This document shows, piece by piece, positions 17,368-24,317 of a stretch of DNA of 64,000 nt (positions are counted from its first letter, which is position 1; each line of letters starts with the position of its first letter). This stretch comes from Pedobacter sp. JY14-1 (GTDB lineage Bacteria; Bacteroidota; Bacteroidia; Sphingobacteriales; Sphingobacteriaceae). The position numbers and the translations under genes were made by a program. The stretch covers positions 248,001-312,000 of the forward strand of contig NZ_JARJHU010000008.1 of assembly GCF_029269825.1 (NCBI RefSeq), written 5' to 3'. The notes under the pieces are model-generated. The model saw nothing but the letters and a program-made list of their open reading frames with translations. It had not been told where the DNA came from and made no database searches.

Positions 17368-18825
17368 TTAGTTTACATACACGTTCATAAACTGATGCGC
17401 AAACGCAAGTAAGGTATCTTCATGAAAATGCCGTGCCATCAGCTGAATACTTAACGGCAAACCTTCCTGATTATTGTCCAGCGGCAAAGCTATTGCCGGA
17501 ATACCTGTCAGCGAAGCCAGAACTGTAAAAATGTCTGCCATGTACATGACCAGCGGGTCTTCCATATGCTCACCCAACTTAAAAGCAGGGGTCGGGGCGA
17601 CAGGTGAAACAATTAAATCATAATGCTCCAGCATTTCTTCCATCTTCTCACGGATGAGCTGCCGCACCTGCTGCGCCTTCTGGTAATAGGCATCATAATA
17701 ACCGGCGCTCAGCACAAAGGTCCCTAAAAGAATTCTCTTTTTGACTTCATCACCGAAACCTGCTGCCCGGGATTTCCGGTAAAGTTCATTCAGGTTCCTG
17801 GCTTCAGTATCGCGGAAACCGTAATGTACACCATCATACCGGGAAAGATTTGAAGAAGCCTCGGCTGTAGTCAGAACATAATAGGCCGGGACAAGATAGT
17901 CAAGCAAGTCAAAAGAAACATACTCTACAACATGGCCCTGTGCCTTGAACCTTTCCAGGGCAGCTTCTACAGCATCCTTTACAGAATGGTCCAGAACACC
18001 GCTGTCCAAAGTCTCCTTAAGAACTGCTATACGCCTGCTTCCTGTTTTTTTCTCCAAATGTTCTGTATAGGGAGGTACAGCTAACCTTGATACCGTGCTG
18101 TCATAGTCATCAGCACCGGCAAGCACTTCCAGCAATACCGCTGCATCAGTTGCGGAATTCGTAATCGTGCCCACCTGGTCAAATGATGAGGCATAAGCGA
18201 TTACACCGTACCTGGATATCCGCCCATATGTAGGCTTCAGCCCAAGGCATCCGCAGAACGCAGCAGGCTGACGCACTGATCCGCCGGTGTCTGTGCCCAG
18301 GGCCGCAAGACACAACCCCGCCTGGACAGCGACAGCAGAGCCTCCTGAAGACCCGCCTGCTACCCTTTCCGTATCGGCCGCATTCCTCACCGGACCGTAA
18401 TAAGAGGTCTCGTTCGACCCGCCCATTGCAAATTCATCGCAGTTTAACCTGCCAATGATTACCGCGTCCTCCTTAAGCAGACGCTCAACGACGGTGGCTG
18501 AATAAGGCGAGACAAACCCTTCAAGCATTTTTGAAGATGCCGTTACCTCATGGCTTTTGTAACAAATATTATCTTTAATACCGATCACCATACCTGCCAG
18601 CTTCCCGGCAGTTCCTGCATCAATCTTAGCCTGCACCTTTTCAGCCTGTGCTGTTGCAGACTGTTCGAATACGCCATTAAAGGCATTCAGGTATTCATTT
18701 TCGCGGATTTGCTCCAGATAGTGTGCCAGGAGCTCAGGAACAGTAAGTGTCTTCTGTGCGATAAGCGCCCTGATTTCCGCCAGGGACTGATATTTCTTCT
18801 GTTTAGGCTGGCTTGTTGGTGTCAT
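17368..18825 (-). CDS. gatA: Aspartyl/glutamyl-tRNA amidotransferase subunit A
   Basis: 485 residues, standard for GatA. The amidase signature is complete: catalytic Lys in [13 protein letters not shown], the Gly/Ser-rich loop [16 protein letters not shown], and the nucleophile loop [16 protein letters not shown]. As part of GatCAB it releases ammonia from glutamine to amidate misacylated Glu-tRNA(Gln) or Asp-tRNA(Asn). gatB and gatC are not in the window. Its start overlaps the short tatA upstream by 23 bases. A general amidase is unlikely, given the length and the [19 protein letters not shown] signature. Confidence 0.95.
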
Positions 18826-18982
18826 CCACGCCTTCTTTTCCGTCCTTAAACTCTTTCACTCCTTTGCCAAGGCCACGCATCAGTTCCGGAATCTTCTTGC
18901 CGCCGAAGAGCAGTAAAACAACCACAAGGATCAGAACGATTTCCGTAGTGCCCAATGCAGCCAGTATTGTTGTATTCAACAT
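18803..18982 (-). CDS. tatA: Short TatA/E-family twin-arginine translocase subunit, 59 residues
   Basis: Too short to be listed among long ORFs, but clear on the minus strand from ATG at 18982 to TAA at 18803. The protein starts [19 protein letters not shown]. It has the TatA layout: a short N-terminal segment, one membrane helix ([15 protein letters not shown]), the hinge [20 protein letters not shown] and a charged tail. TatA oligomers form the passage for folded proteins in the inner membrane. It sits 10 bases after a longer TatA-like gene and overlaps gatA by 23 bases. The core resembles the longer copy closely, suggesting a tandem duplication. Confidence 0.88.
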
Positions 18983-18992
18983 GATATTTTAA

Positions 18993-19328
18993 TTAAAGGT
19001 TAGTCTTATCTGTTTCTATTTTATCTTCCCTGTCCTGCAGGTTTTGAGCAACAACATCTTCGTTGCCCGGATATCTGCTTTGAGATGTATCCTTCACTTC
19101 GTTTACGATAGCATTGACATCTTCTTCAATACCTACGGCATTTATGTTTCTCTGGATTTCACGCTTCACGCCTTCCGAGGCATCCTTAAACTCACGGATC
19201 CCTTTCCCCAGGCCTCTTGCCAGTTCAGGTAATTTTTTACCTCCAAATAACAAAAGCACTACGGCCAGGATCAGCATAATCTCACCGCCGCCCATATTCA
19301 GAAATTCAATAATCGTCCCTCTATACAT
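18993..19328 (-). CDS. TatA/B-family translocase subunit with long tail, 111 residues
   Basis: It has the same core as the neighbouring short TatA: membrane helix [15 protein letters not shown] and amphipathic [23 protein letters not shown] charged, mostly acidic tail of about 55 residues follows. The start is taken at [12 protein letters not shown]; the internal Met 12 would leave very little before the helix. The longer tail may mean a TatB-like job, but the helix and hinge are TatA-like, and TatC is not in this window. It is probably the first gene of tat-tat-gatA-mlt; a -7 box lies 30-37 bases upstream. Confidence 0.88.
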
Positions 19329-19384: not shown

Positions 19385-20659
19385 TTACTTGGCAATCCAG
19401 CCTTCAGGATTTTGCGCGGCTATCCCTCTCCGGATCTGGAACTGAAGCTGAGGTGTACCGTCAGTATTTGCAACAACCCCGATCGTCTGTTTGGTGGTCA
19501 CATTATCGCCCCGGGAAACACTCACAGATTTCAGGTTCTGATAAACGGTAAAATACTCTCCGTGCTTGATCAGTACATAGTATCTCCCAAGCTGCGAATC
19601 TACTGCACTGACTACTCCATTGAATACCGCCCGCACTGCCGCACCTTCTGTTGTTTCAATATTGACACCGTCATTGGTGTAACTTGCCTGTCCTTCCATG
19701 TGCCGCCCAAAACTTTCAACGATAGTTCCTGTGGCCACAGGCCATGGCAGCGAGCCTCTGTTTCCTTCAAACTGAGAAGACAAACGTGCCGATTCAGGAG
19801 TCGCAGTCAGGTAAGATCCGCTCGACCTGGGCTTTTCTTCGGTTACAGGTACGGGGCGGTTCTCCGCCTTCGCCTTTGCCGCAGCAGCCCGTTCCGCCGC
19901 TCTGGCTTCTTCCTCTGCCTTTCGCCTCGCAATCTCAATTTCCCTGGCAATTGCAGCACGTATGCTTCGATCCAGCTGGGCACGCTGTCTAACCCTTGCC
20001 GCAATGTCCTGCTTCAACTGCTTTTCCTGCTTGCTGTACCGGTTGAAAACCGCTGACTGCTCTGATTTATTCTTACCGAGCTTGCTTTTCTCCTGCTCCT
20101 GTTCCTGAAGTAAGCTGCTCTTTTCCTTCAGGTTCTTGTCCAATACCACGATCTCTGCATTCAAATCCTTTTGCTTCCCTTGAATATAACCTGCCTGCTT
20201 CTTGCGGTACTGTCCAAACTGCTGAAGGTATTTGATCCGTTTATAGGCCTGGTTAAAATCCTGGGCAGCAAAAATGAACATCATCTTGTCATAAGCATTC
20301 TGGTTACGCTGTGCAAACCGGATCATACTCGCATACTCCTTCTTTAACTGACTCAACTGGCCCTTAAGGTTATTTACGGTATTTGTGTTCTGGTGTATCT
20401 GGTTGTCGAGGTTCTTGATTTCAGAGTTGATGACCCCGATCTTATTCTGCATCAGCCGGATCTTTGCATTTATTGCATTGATCTGCCCTAATGTCAATTT
20501 TTTATTATTGGCCGCCTTATTTGCATTTTTTTGTAAGAGGTCTATTTCCCGCTGTATCGCTTCCTTCTTTCTCTTCAACTCCGCGCTGCTTTGTGAAAAG
20601 GCTCTTGGAACACCCATCAGGAACAACACAAGAAAAAACAGTAAATGGTATGGCTTCAT
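19385..20659 (-). CDS. EnvC-like murein hydrolase activator (degenerate M23/LytM)
   Basis: 424 residues with a signal peptide ending near FSQS. A long coiled coil covers about residues 22-250 (KRKKEAIQREIDLLQKNA onward), then an Ala/Arg/Glu-rich segment, then a LytM/M23 domain from about residue 300. The zinc ligands are lost: the usual HxGxD site reads NDGVNIET and the HxH site reads LQFQI. It is therefore expected not to cut peptidoglycan itself but, like EnvC, to activate amidases during cell division. It follows the DUF4292 lipoprotein after 21 bases, at the end of a long envelope operon. Confidence 0.9.
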   Translation of the reverse strand: MKPYHLLFFLVLFLMGVPRAFSQSSAELKRKKEAIQREIDLLQKNANKAANNKKLTLGQINAINAKIRLMQNKIGVINSEIKNLDNQIHQNTNTVNNLKGQLSQLKKEYASMIRFAQRNQNAYDKMMFIFAAQDFNQAYKRIKYLQQFGQYRKKQAGYIQGKQKDLNAEIVVLDKNLKEKSSLLQEQEQEKSKLGKNKSEQSAVFNRYSKQEKQLKQDIAARVRQRAQLDRSIRAAIAREIEIARRKAEEEARAAERAAAAKAKAENRPVPVTEEKPRSSGSYLTATPESARLSSQFEGNRGSLPWPVATGTIVESFGRHMEGQASYTNDGVNIETTEGAAVRAVFNGVVSAVDSQLGRYYVLIKHGEYFTVYQNLKSVSVSRGDNVTTKQTIGVVANTDGTPQLQFQIRRGIAAQNPEGWIAK

Positions 20660-20680: not shown

Positions 20681-21469
20681 TCAATTGATTACCTCAAACT
20701 TAGCCGGAACACTAAAAGGATACTCCAGTTGAAGGTCTCGCTCTACTTTAGAAAAATCCAGATCAATCTTTACCGTCTGTTTGCCCGAAACCGAGCTTAT
20801 CTTTGCTGAAGAAGGGAATAACAATTCATTTACCAGTTGATATTCCCCATACTGAACCTTAAGTGCCTTTCCGGATTTTACATCGTTCAGGTTCAAATCC
20901 GAGGTCTTGAGCAAAGTATTGAACAACACCTGGTAGCCCAATCCGCCCTGAACGCCTTTTAGTACCCAGTTTCCATTCAGTGTATCCGGAATGGTCTTCT
21001 GATCAGTAAAGGCAGCCACAGTGTTCCCTGTCAGCATGGACTGAAGCAGCATAAAGTCTACTTCCGGGCTTGCAAATTTCTGTATATAGGCAAATGGCTT
21101 CTTAAGATATACCTGTTGGAAATTGTTCCTCACCTTGATACTGTCCGGCGTGATCAATGCCCGCGCAACTTCTATCCCTGCAATCGCTGTTATACTTACC
21201 CATATTTTTTCGTCCTTCTGCATCCGGATATTCATCGCAACATTATTCCCGTTGCCATTTATATCCAGATAAGCCTTGGCCTTCAGTGATAATGTCCGGT
21301 AGCTGAAGTCCCTCTCGCGTAACCGTCGAAGCACCTCGGCGCTACGGGTATCGACGGCTGCAACCGGCCGTTCCGGAGGTTTTACCAGCGCCTTCTTCGT
21401 TTTGCACGCCATCGCCAGGCAACCTATGACCGCCAGCAGTAATGTACTATTTAATATATTTTTCCTCAT
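20681..21469 (-). CDS. DUF4292 lipoprotein, possibly LolB-like
   Basis: 262 residues with a lipoprotein signal: MRKNILNSTLLLAVIGCLAM followed by AC, with lipobox LAMAC (Cys 22). The mature part carries DUF4292 features: SLKAKAYLDINGNGNNVAMN, RMQKDEKIWVSITAIAGIE and VARALITPDSIKV. The succession of beta-strands, the tryptophan after KDEK and the line about a solution set by its own envelope substrate resemble the LolA/LolB lipoprotein-carrier fold; this is my inference, not something proven by the sequence. The start overlaps the TPR gene by 23 bases, and the EnvC-like gene follows closely, so a job in envelope assembly is likely. Confidence 0.85.
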   Translation of the reverse strand: MRKNILNSTLLLAVIGCLAMACKTKKALVKPPERPVAAVDTRSAEVLRRLRERDFSYRTLSLKAKAYLDINGNGNNVAMNIRMQKDEKIWVSITAIAGIEVARALITPDSIKVRNNFQQVYLKKPFAYIQKFASPEVDFMLLQSMLTGNTVAAFTDQKTIPDTLNGNWVLKGVQGGLGYQVLFNTLLKTSDLNLNDVKSGKALKVQYGEYQLVNELLFPSSAKISSVSGKQTVKIDLDFSKVERDLQLEYPFSVPAKFEVIN

Positions 21470-22517
21470 TGATCTTTCTCTTCAGTTTATCTGTGTGGTT
21501 ACCTGCTGCCTTCGATTTCTTCCATTGCTCTACCGCATCACTGGTCTTTCCCTTTAAAAAAAGCAAATCTCCATAGCACTCCAGCAATGCAGGGTTATCT
21601 TCGTCCAGGCCCATTGCTGTTTGTATCTGCTGCAGTGCATCATCAATACGTCCCGCATTCAACAAGGCCACTGCCTGATGAAAATACAGCGCGGCCTGAC
21701 TGGGATATAGAGATAACGCTTCATCTCCGGATTTAATTGCCTCCTGGTACATTCCCAGCAAAAGCTGAGTCCTCATCAGGTGTTCCCAGGCCATATACAG
21801 CTGGTCTGTCAGCTTTACCGTCGCCTCAAATTTCTCCAGCGCGCCTTTCAGGTCACCCGCCTTAAACAAGACCTCTCCTTCTGCGAGCAATTGTTCAGGA
21901 GCCGTCAGCGTAACTCCAGCGGCACTGCTTTCATCGGAAACAGTGCTTCCGGCAGTTATCCTTTTTCTTGCCTTTTCCAGTTCTTCAGAAGGCCCGAACT
22001 TTTGCTCCATCACCACGTATGCCTTCGTCGCCTCCCCTGTCTTACCTCCCAGCAATAAAGCATTGGCACGGTCATAATAAAATGATTCATCTTCCGGGCT
22101 TAATGCAATCATACGGTCAAAGACATTAACAAGTGCATCCATATCTCCCTTACGTTTGTACAGTTCTGCAAGCATGCGCAAAAACCAGATATTGCCGGGG
22201 CGGGCAGCGGTAGCTTTTCGGATCGCAATCTCGGCATCCAGTAATTTATTCTGCCGGAAGCTCACAACTGCAAGTTCATAATTCGCAGGTGCATCCTCTG
22301 GCTGGGAAACCAGTATCTTTTTAAAACATTCTTCAGCTTTTGCATAGTTTTCGTTCAGCTTTTCCCTAAGCCCTTCAAAAAACAACAAGCGGACCGTGTT
22401 GCTGTCTGCCATAGCTGCAGGTTTCACCGTCTGCCCGGAAACCTGCATAAAAAATATCGAAAGTCCGTAAAACAGGGCCAGCAAAAACAACTTACAACTA
22501 TCTATTCCAATCGTCAT
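21447..22517 (-). CDS. Exported tetratricopeptide repeat protein
   Basis: 356 residues with a signal-like hydrophobic start (LFLLALFYGLSIFFMQVSGQ). At least six TPR units are visible, for example NYAKAEECFKKILVSQPEDA, LLDAEIAIRKATAARPGNIW and YQEAIKSGDEALSLYPSQAA. TPR arrays bind protein partners; here probably in the periplasm. The start overlaps the flippase stop by 4 bases (ATGA) and the end overlaps the DUF4292 gene by 23 bases, so production is tightly coupled to both. The precise partner is unknown. Confidence 0.9.
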   Translation of the reverse strand: MTIGIDSCKLFLLALFYGLSIFFMQVSGQTVKPAAMADSNTVRLLFFEGLREKLNENYAKAEECFKKILVSQPEDAPANYELAVVSFRQNKLLDAEIAIRKATAARPGNIWFLRMLAELYKRKGDMDALVNVFDRMIALSPEDESFYYDRANALLLGGKTGEATKAYVVMEQKFGPSEELEKARKRITAGSTVSDESSAAGVTLTAPEQLLAEGEVLFKAGDLKGALEKFEATVKLTDQLYMAWEHLMRTQLLLGMYQEAIKSGDEALSLYPSQAALYFHQAVALLNAGRIDDALQQIQTAMGLDEDNPALLECYGDLLFLKGKTSDAVEQWKKSKAAGNHTDKLKRKINEEKYIK

Positions 22518-24037
22518 TTTCCTTTTAAAATCGCTTTCAGTCCTTTACGTTCCAGATAAACAGCAGCACCGGCAAACACCAGCAGCAACATGTTTCCAAT
22601 GTAGATATTCCGGTTAAAAATATTGAAAGATAAAAATACAATCAAAATGGCAGCGAGCATGTAAGCTGTATTTTTCCTGATATGATAAGGAATAGGATAG
22701 TGCCGCTGTCCGAGAACATAGGACAAAATCATCATTATCGCATATGCCGACACAGATGCCCAGGCAGAGGCCAGATAACTATATTCGGGGATAAAAATCC
22801 AATTCAGTACGATCGTAACCAACGCACCAATACCCGAGATATAAAGACCGAAACGGGTTTGATCGGAAAGCTTATACCAGACGGATAAGTTCATATATAT
22901 CCCTAAGCTCATATAGCCAAATATGAGCGGCGGAATCACGTTTAGCCCGGCCCAGTAGACATTATTTATTACCGTACCATTTACTATCCGGGTCTCGGCC
23001 CCCACGATAACACTAGCCAGCAAGTCTACATTGGCGACCAATGCAACACTGATTACTGCAACCGTAATGACAAAATAATCCATGATACGGGCATAGGTCT
23101 CACCAGCGTTACTATTCTTGGACTGGCTAAAAAAGAATGGTTCCGCACCTAACCGGAAGGCCTGGACAAACAGATTGAGGAACAATGCGATTTTTGCACA
23201 CATTCCATAAATGGCGACATCTCTGTCTGCGATCTGAATCGGCAGCATGTGTTTCAGCATCGCCTTGTCCAGCGACTCGTTGATAATGAATGATATATTG
23301 GCGATGAGTATCGGCCAGCTATAATTCAGCATCTGCAAAAACATCCGCATGTTAAAATGCAACCTTAACTTCAGCAGCTCGGGCAACAGCAGCAATACCG
23401 TCAATGCACTCGCAAACAAATTTGACAGGAATACATAGCCTACCCACTTTGGCCGGTACCATACTGCCATCCATTCTCCTCCCGGCAATCCCCGGCTGAT
23501 CATGAAAGGGACGATGAAAAGAAAAAACACGTTAAAAAAAACCACAATAAAGATATTGAGGCATTTGACCACACCAAACCGAACCGGTCTTCCCTCCGCC
23601 CTTAACCTTGCAAAGGGGATCACACATACCGCATCAGTAACCAGGATCGCCAGAAAACACTGCACATAGAATTTATAATCGCGGTAGGCCCCTGTATCCC
23701 CTGCCAGCAAAAAACGGATGACATCGTCCAGAAAAAACAGGGAAAAGGCAAGAAATACCATAGAAACAACAAAGACTGCTCCAAAGGAATTATTATATAC
23801 GGTCTCCCTGTCATCGTCACGTTTCTGCAAATACCTGAAAAAGGTAGTTTCCATACCAAAAGCCAGTATGGCATTGATAATGGAGGCATAACCATACATC
23901 GCCGTAAAGATTCCGTTCCCACCTACCGGCAACGCACGTGCATAGACCGGTGTCAATGCAAATGCGATCATCCTGGAAAGGATCGTACTTACCCCGTAGA
24001 TCAGCGTTTGCCCGGCAAATTTTCTGTATACCGACAT
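22514..24037 (-). CDS. Polysaccharide-type flippase (MOP superfamily)
   Basis: 507 residues with about 14 predicted membrane helices, starting YRKFAGQTLIYGVSTILSRM, a typical start for oligosaccharide/lipid-linked sugar flippases of the MOP superfamily. It should move a lipid-linked glycan across the inner membrane. It is not in the exopolysaccharide cluster but in an operon with a TPR protein, a DUF4292 lipoprotein and an EnvC-like factor, so a housekeeping cell-wall or LPS substrate is more likely than a capsule. It starts 1 base after the acylphosphatase stop. The true substrate cannot be read from the sequence. Confidence 0.88.
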   Translation of the reverse strand: MSVYRKFAGQTLIYGVSTILSRMIAFALTPVYARALPVGGNGIFTAMYGYASIINAILAFGMETTFFRYLQKRDDDRETVYNNSFGAVFVVSMVFLAFSLFFLDDVIRFLLAGDTGAYRDYKFYVQCFLAILVTDAVCVIPFARLRAEGRPVRFGVVKCLNIFIVVFFNVFFLFIVPFMISRGLPGGEWMAVWYRPKWVGYVFLSNLFASALTVLLLLPELLKLRLHFNMRMFLQMLNYSWPILIANISFIINESLDKAMLKHMLPIQIADRDVAIYGMCAKIALFLNLFVQAFRLGAEPFFFSQSKNSNAGETYARIMDYFVITVAVISVALVANVDLLASVIVGAETRIVNGTVINNVYWAGLNVIPPLIFGYMSLGIYMNLSVWYKLSDQTRFGLYISGIGALVTIVLNWIFIPEYSYLASAWASVSAYAIMMILSYVLGQRHYPIPYHIRKNTAYMLAAILIVFLSFNIFNRNIYIGNMLLLVFAGAAVYLERKGLKAILKGK

Positions 24038-24038
24038 G

Positions 24039-24317
24039 TTAACGTTTAACGATCACAAAATCCTTGAAATGCTTCAGTTCTCCTGCTTTAAAGGTACAGG
24101 ATTCCACCCGTGCACGGTCAGGTCCGTCCCCGCACCATTCCATAAATGCATCGAGTTCCCAGCGGGCTGCCTCAGCCTCTATATATACAGAACCATCGGG
24201 TTCATTCCGTATAAAACCTTTGATCCCCGCCTGGTCGGCAACATATTTGGTGGTTTCCCTGAACCTTACTCCCTGCACCTTACCGTTTACCACAATATCC
24301 AGATGTACTGTTTCCAT
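24039..24317 (-). CDS. Acylphosphatase
   Basis: 92 residues, the normal size. The signature VNGKVQGVRFRETTKYVAD contains the catalytic Arg (GVRFR), and GFIRNEPDGSVYIEAEA holds the conserved Asn (FIRN) that positions the nucleophilic water. It hydrolyses acyl phosphates such as acetyl phosphate in the cytoplasm. Its physiological role is unclear in most bacteria. It sits between the nitronate monooxygenase-like gene (17-base gap) and the flippase (1-base gap). Confidence 0.93.
   Translation of the reverse strand: METVHLDIVVNGKVQGVRFRETTKYVADQAGIKGFIRNEPDGSVYIEAEAARWELDAFMEWCGDGPDRARVESCTFKAGELKHFKDFVIVKR

Follow-up and report, generated by a model that had tools for sequence, protein, structure and literature searches.

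The closest described relatives of the protein studied here are two LolB proteins of Bacteroidota. In Flavobacterium johnsoniae, LolB1 (Fjoh_1066) was shown to be required for gliding and type 9 (T9) secretion, and both its loop and its lipidation were tested (De Smet et al. 2025; PMC11885536). The same paper reports LolB1 homologues in every species of its Bacteroidota set, that E. coli LolB was unable to replace F. johnsoniae LolB1, that lolA1 or lolB1 mutants mislocalised just a subset of outer-membrane lipoproteins and not these proteins in general, that lolB1 mutants formed abnormal cells in poor medium, and that lolB of C. canimorsus resisted attempted deletion. For Porphyromonas gingivalis, the structure of LolB-PG (PGN0994, PDB 9TPM) was solved and its binding to LolA was measured (Jaiman et al. 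2026; PMC13103446); LolB-PG has a lipidated cysteine and some LolA-like features, and in beta- and gamma-proteobacteria, according to the same source, lolB adjoins ispE and hemA. The subject of this report is a gene for a DUF4292 (PF14125) protein, together with its neighbours, in a 64,000-nucleotide stretch of the Pedobacter sp. JY14-1 genome (assembly GCF_029269825.1, contig NZ_JARJHU010000008.1, positions 248,001 to 312,000), hereafter called the window. A preliminary description of this DNA had noted that the DUF4292 protein is reminiscent of LolB and had stated that most Bacteroidota lack classical LolB; in light of the two papers the latter statement is out of date.

The DUF4292 protein was found to belong to the same family as F. 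johnsoniae LolB1, a relationship established through the NCBIfam equivalog model LolB1_Flavo (NF053559) and not by direct alignment. The model matched residues 11-254 of the window protein over model positions 2-244, scoring 200.6 bits where the cut-off is 50 (curated-family scores are from NCBIfam release 20.0), and the PF14125 model matched with 177 bits (cut-off 23). Among the matches listed, the closest named relative was from Pedobacter ginsengisoli, at 62% identity. An alignment termed A1 was prepared from 39 of the 59 LolB proteins of a class-wide set of loci (window included), hand-picked for clean N-termini, and NF053559 matched 39/39 of its members at E<=0.001. When the A1 profile was compared with 177,635 distinct PDB sequences, it matched 9tpm_A at E=1e-19. 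That chain was deposited under the name 'DUF4292 domain-containing protein', and the data statement of PMC13103446 gives 9TPM as LolB-PG of P. gingivalis.

The predicted structure led to the same family. An AlphaFold model of the window protein, built from 50 sequences (window and close relatives), had a pLDDT of 87.8 and a pTM of 0.81 and displayed the open curved beta barrel of the LolA/LolB fold, so the comparison with LolA and LolB proposed in the preliminary description returned that very fold. A Foldseek search of the PDB with the model placed 9tpm at rank 1 (E=2.0e-13, TMq 0.72). Alignment with VIA-align 2 gave a Z of 22.8 for 9TPM (220 residues, 2.6 Å), 15.6 for E. coli LolB (1iwm; 164 residues, 2.9 Å) and 12.2 for E. 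coli LolA (1ua8; 164 residues, 3.3 Å). In the structural ranking 9TPM was followed by E. coli and V. cholerae LolB (Z 15.4 to 15.7) and then by other proteins of the LolA/LolB fold; LolB proteins filled ranks 1-6, most LolA proteins lay at Z 10 to 12.7, P. gingivalis LolA3 reached 14.0 and RseB stood at ~7. The identity of the sequences is low in spite of the shared fold, at 13% over the structural alignment with LolB-PG and likewise 13% with E. coli LolB, for which the role of lipoprotein receptor is carried over by analogy. Taken together, these data identify the window DUF4292 protein, with high confidence, as LolB1, the version of the outer-membrane lipoprotein receptor LolB that Bacteroidota possess. 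The LolB identity of DUF4292 is correct and was already published in 2025-2026.

The lipobox reported for this protein proved to be real. Its cysteine, read from the sequence as C22 (LAMAC), was the sole invariant column of A1 (39/39 rows) and was also kept in 50/50 rows of a second alignment, A3, made from the window and 49 of 80 close-relative loci. C17 (VIGC) looks like a lipobox cysteine as well, and it was rejected as out of register, the aligned cysteine being C22. A lipoprotein signal is thus common to the window protein and F. johnsoniae LolB1, and the cysteine predicted to carry the lipid has its counterpart in the lipidated cysteine of LolB-PG. The function of LolB1 in Pedobacter sp. 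JY14-1 and its orientation in the membrane can be put forward as follows. LolB1 would be made with a lipoprotein signal, and C22 would hold it in the outer membrane on the periplasmic side. The cleft of its curved beta sheet would accept acyl chains handed over by LolA in the periplasm, after which LolB1 would insert the lipoprotein into the outer membrane.

The putative partner, LolA, is encoded elsewhere in the genome (PF03548, 54.9 bits, G000:C5:579752-580246), beside an FtsK gene. Among 30 of the LolA-matching loci (L031 and L194-L222), lolA adjoined an FtsK gene in 18, and in 18 of the 21 where LolA resembles that of the window genome; in L031 and L196, Pfam confirmed the FtsK assignment. 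Division-type genes are thus frequent neighbours at either end of the LolA-LolB relay.

The genes around lolB1 are all on the minus strand (Table 1) and in the order of transcription encode an acylphosphatase, a flippase, a TPR protein, LolB1, an EnvC-like M23 protein, two TatA-like proteins and a GatA-like amidase, the last being a reading by eye. The flippase, TPR, DUF4292 and EnvC-like genes had been described as overlapping or nearly touching, and this was borne out: the flippase and TPR genes overlap by 4 base pairs (bp), the TPR and DUF4292 genes overlap by 23 bp, and a 21-bp gap separates the DUF4292 gene from the EnvC-like gene. The span 20681-24037 given for these four genes holds three of them, while the EnvC-like gene lies outside it (19385-20659). 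At the other end, the acylphosphatase gene lies so close upstream of the flippase gene that the run is longer than was first described. A Pfam scan of the window proteins found several TPR families in the TPR protein and Peptidase_M23 in the EnvC-like protein at 62 bits (cut-off 28.7).

Table 1. Coordinates of lolB1 and neighbouring features in the window (aa, amino acids)
Feature	Position	Strand	Size and basis
LolB1 (DUF4292, PF14125), predicted outer-membrane lipoprotein receptor/insertase	20681..21469	-	262 aa; NF053559, PF14125, AlphaFold model
Codon of lipobox cysteine C22, LolB1	21404..21406	-	invariant alignment column
beta3-beta4 loop of LolB1, A95-I96-A97-G98	21176..21187	-	model strands 88-95 and 99-106
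Exported TPR protein	21447..22517	-	356 aa; Pfam TPR families; signal peptide judged by eye
EnvC-like protein, coiled coil and degenerate LytM (M23) domain	19385..20659	-	424 aa; phmmer to 8hd0_E
Wzx-like polysaccharide flippase	22514..24037	-	507 aa; Polysacc_synt, marginal
Acylphosphatase	24039..24317	-	92 aa; PF00708 76.9 bits; 1 bp upstream of flippase
Two tandem TatA-like genes after the EnvC-like gene	18803-18982 and 18993-19328	-	PF02416 58.6 and 67.1 bits

The distribution of the family and the conservation of this gene order were explored across the phylum. PF14125 was present in 114/119 genomes of the class Bacteroidia and in 155/158 genomes of a phylum sample, and the one match among 14 control genomes was in Bacteroides ihuae, itself a member of the phylum. 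Gene order was scored in three sets of loci, namely a class set (the window and 60 loci, in most cases a single one for each family label), an other-class set (20 loci, one per family label) and a close-relative set (the best 80 of 311 loci, mostly Pedobacter). Open reading frames (ORFs) were called by script and labelled with iterated HMMER profiles, of which the TPR profile may catch any TPR protein, and neighbours were required to be adjacent and on the same strand. A DUF4292 ORF was labelled in 59/61 class, 18/20 other-class and 80/80 close-relative loci; no separate DUF4292 frame was labelled in L047, L186 and L193, and the script counts were left unadjusted. A TPR gene directly upstream of lolB1 together with an M23 gene directly downstream was found in 45/59 class, 11/18 other-class and 78/80 close-relative loci. 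Within the class set, TPR adjoined lolB1 in 51/59 loci and M23 did so in 51/59; only TPR was adjacent in 6/59, only M23 in 6/59 and neither in 2/59, exceptions that comprise real breaks as well as failures of ORF calling. In one GC-rich locus that was not counted (L042), the ORF caller missed the triad, yet all three genes were readable.

As a control, profiles of the other window neighbours were searched for in the 61 class loci. The TPR and M23 profiles each matched in 53 and the flippase profile in 32, while MltD was found in 12, GatA in 11, malic enzyme in 5, TatA in 4, amidohydrolase in 3, acylphosphatase in 3 and NMO in 2; this control is weak for genes encoding fewer than ~110 amino acids, some of which the ORF caller misses, including the acylphosphatase gene of the window itself. 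With the flippase set aside, the difference between 53/61 for TPR and M23 and 2-12/61 for the other neighbours places the gene order above chance. The preliminary description had proposed that conservation of the order across the phylum be checked, and TPR-DUF4292-EnvC is indeed kept both in the class and in other classes. TPR-lolB1-envC is a conserved unit that is old in the phylum.

Some outlying loci deserve separate mention. At three of the 20 other-class loci (L183:6850-10299, L185:6851-10110 and L188:6648-10162), the DUF4292 gene is directly followed by LptD (LptD_2, 264.7 to 306.5 bits) and not by EnvC. As no cysteine occurs among the first 60 residues of the L183 DUF4292 protein, this protein may be a soluble one of the LolB fold that is linked to the export of lipopolysaccharide. 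In one genome, LolB1 and EnvC were read as a single frame of 703 amino acids (L047:6847-8958). Two genomes of the same genus label have 297-amino-acid frames, which makes an assembly frameshift likely, and this apparent fusion was not used as evidence.

The closest described counterpart of the EnvC-like protein is EnvC of E. coli (PDB 8hd0, 6tpi). In a phmmer search, residues 20-423 aligned with 29-418 of chain 8hd0_E (E=4.3e-17), that is, over the whole length of the coiled coil and the LytM domain. The four zinc-ligand positions of the window LytM domain are N, N, Q and Q, so that none is kept. Among 74 EnvC-like proteins encoded within two genes downstream of lolB1 (52 from the class set, 12 from the other-class set and 10 from every eighth named locus), all four ligands were present in 0, the first His in 1, the Asp in 48 and the last His in 44. 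By comparison, control M23 frames had both zinc motifs in L249 and L252 and the second only in L251; L250 of this control is the locus of the window itself. As expected for an EnvC-type system, the genome also carries an FtsX gene with an extracellular domain (FtsX_ECD, 53.3 bits, L246) and two Amidase_3 matches. The EnvC-like protein, with its degenerate LytM domain, would govern the splitting of the cell wall, probably by activating cell-wall amidases under the control of FtsX. Where E. coli LolB belongs to a group whose lolB neighbours are ispE and hemA, the neighbour in the window is envC-like, and its position next to lolB1 also sets this gene apart from that of EnvC.

The TPR protein of the window is short, with 356 amino acids against a median of 582 in the class set and 564 in the close relatives, and a similarly short form occurs in some Pedobacter relatives (360 amino acids in L092, 357 in L093). 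A lipobox-like motif was found in the TPR proteins of 25/51 class, 6/11 other-class and 3/78 close-relative loci.

The flippase, which had been counted as a member of the operon, is not a stable one. The Polysacc_synt match of the window protein is marginal (28.5 bits, cut-off 28.2), and a flippase gene was found at most four genes upstream of lolB1 in 29/59 class, 0/18 other-class and 80/80 close-relative loci; it lay directly beside the TPR gene in only 3/59 class and 5/80 close-relative loci. The flippase is a loosely associated neighbour of TPR-lolB1-envC. A role for it as the lipid II flippase was considered and dropped, as the genome has a MurJ match (111.9 bits) at another site. Most commonly, the class set showed the order flippase, dut, nucleotidyltransferase (NTP_transferase with hexapeptide repeats), TPR, lolB1 and envC, and among the sampled loci the first three were seen beside the triad only in the class Bacteroidia. 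The nucleotidyltransferase occupied that place in 0/80 close relatives. A dut gene was present at most four genes upstream of lolB1 in 73/80 close relatives and is missing at the corresponding site of the window (22514-22517), and a search of the window genome with the dUTPase family PF00692 gave no match. The genome has two UDG-family matches and a weak match to PF08761 (25.4 bits, cut-off 22.9). It could be that this weak match marks a replacement of dut.

Several observations weigh against the picture of a LolB1 receptor encoded in one unit with an EnvC. When the DUF4292 sequence by itself was compared with the PDB, only chance matches and no LolB were obtained, so a profile search was needed. 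The beta3-beta4 loop of E. coli LolB, F. johnsoniae LolB1 (PMC11885536) and LolB-PG (PMC13103446) carries an exposed Leu, which is important in the first two; in the window the loop reads AIAG in the AlphaFold model, with Ala at that position and Ile96 beside it. Alignment column 97 is Leu in 17/39 class-wide rows, and Ala in the window and in 29/50 rows of close relatives. As F. johnsoniae LolB1 with the L74E exchange was still partly functional (secretion restored, gliding partly; PMC11885536), the Leu is no absolute requirement, and Ala in the window may still be compatible with function. The C-terminal region of F. johnsoniae LolB1 was described as disordered, and both the level of the protein and its full function depended on it (PMC11885536), whereas the window protein is predicted to end in a short confident segment (strand 231-244, a loop and strand 259-261; block pLDDT 84-97) with no long disordered tail. 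In the model this end appears similar to the terminal strand described for LolB-PG and unlike the F. johnsoniae tail. F. johnsoniae remains viable when every one of its LolA and LolB proteins is missing (PMC11885536), and deletion of lolB in P. gingivalis was without effect on the tested traits, with no fimbrial phenotype (PMC13103446). On the side of the wall, the EnvC-like protein reached 92.5 bits with the NCBIfam EnvC equivalog model, below its cut-off of 270; for this reason it is termed EnvC-like, and by this score it is a homologue and not a called equivalog. Finally, a promoter and terminator scan of the locus found a number of sites no higher than in shuffled sequence.

As to the identity of the protein, it could be argued that DUF4292 is a relative of the LolA-type carriers, or an RseB-like lipid sensor, and not a LolB-type receptor. 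The fold is after all common to LolA and, more weakly, to RseB, and P. gingivalis LolB itself shares features with LolA (PMC13103446). The invariant lipobox cysteine, the LolB proteins at the head of the structural ranking and the NCBIfam LolB1 equivalog match speak against this explanation, which is very improbable. What the conserved neighbourhood of LolB1 means is harder to judge. The preliminary description had suggested a single process joining cell-wall remodelling, glycan transport and lipoprotein sorting; this is possible and has partial support only, the conserved unit being TPR-lolB1-envC with the flippase as a looser neighbour. It is quite possible, if somewhat short of an even chance, that the tight packing is incidental and reflects the co-regulation of separate housekeeping genes in a compact operon. 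Two members of the usual cluster, the dUTPase and the nucleotidyltransferase, show no evident tie to lipoprotein sorting, and the flippase is labelled in only about half of the class loci and in none of the other-class loci, in keeping with such an explanation; the TPR and M23 profiles, however, match far more class loci than do the other neighbours, again leaving the flippase aside.

A rival interpretation is that TPR-lolB1-envC is a functional module: by way of EnvC, the insertion of lipoproteins by LolB1 would be tied, in space or in time, to the splitting of the septal wall, and the TPR protein would serve as an adaptor. The order is kept in all three sets of loci and, where the genes adjoin in the class set, the gap is <=0 in 41/51 (TPR-LolB1) and 40/51 (LolB1-M23), numbers in which overlaps are overestimated, as every ORF was taken to begin with the first start codon in its frame. 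The lipobox-like motif of many TPR proteins in the class and other-class sets, the frequent position of lolA beside an FtsK gene and the abnormal F. johnsoniae lolB1 mutant cells (PMC11885536) point in the same direction. However, the shared order may reflect co-regulation of envelope genes alone, the linkage can be broken, as in the exceptional class loci, and the motif is rare in the TPR proteins of close relatives. Moreover, the lolB1 phenotypes in the examined sections of PMC11885536 concern gliding and T9 secretion, along with mild defects of shape, and the term 'cell division' is absent from the main text of that paper. Such a module is unlikely on the present evidence, and a functional link between LolB1 and the EnvC-like protein in Pedobacter sp. 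JY14-1 is putative. The more specific proposal, that of a single envelope machine, is decidedly doubtful: in it the TPR protein, in many cases a lipoprotein too, would keep LolB1 and the EnvC-like activator in one place, and new lipoproteins would enter the outer membrane at the sites where the septal wall is being opened by EnvC.

Of these results, the gene order alone was not found described in the literature searches. The study of De Smet et al. included an inspection of gene neighbourhoods in MaGe (PMC11885536), and TPR or EnvC neighbours of lolB1 are not described in the examined parts of the main text, while the supplements may show the order. The searches found no description of a lolB-envC order, the EnvC matches having been judged by titles and the beginnings of abstracts, or left unopened. 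No paper using the domain name DUF4292 was found in the literature searched, so the link to LolB is hidden from readers who start at that name.

The annotation 'DUF4292' in Bacteroidota genomes should accordingly read LolB1, whose gene is nearly universal in the phylum sample, and a false gap is thereby removed. What remains of interest is why lolB1 stays between the TPR gene and the envC-like gene across the classes of the phylum, a question not raised in the examined parts of the two LolB papers; the lptD neighbours in the three outlying loci offer a second comparison for the gene context of lolB1. If the envelope machine were true, TPR-LolB1-EnvC would provide Bacteroidota with an inherent link between division and the growth of the outer membrane.

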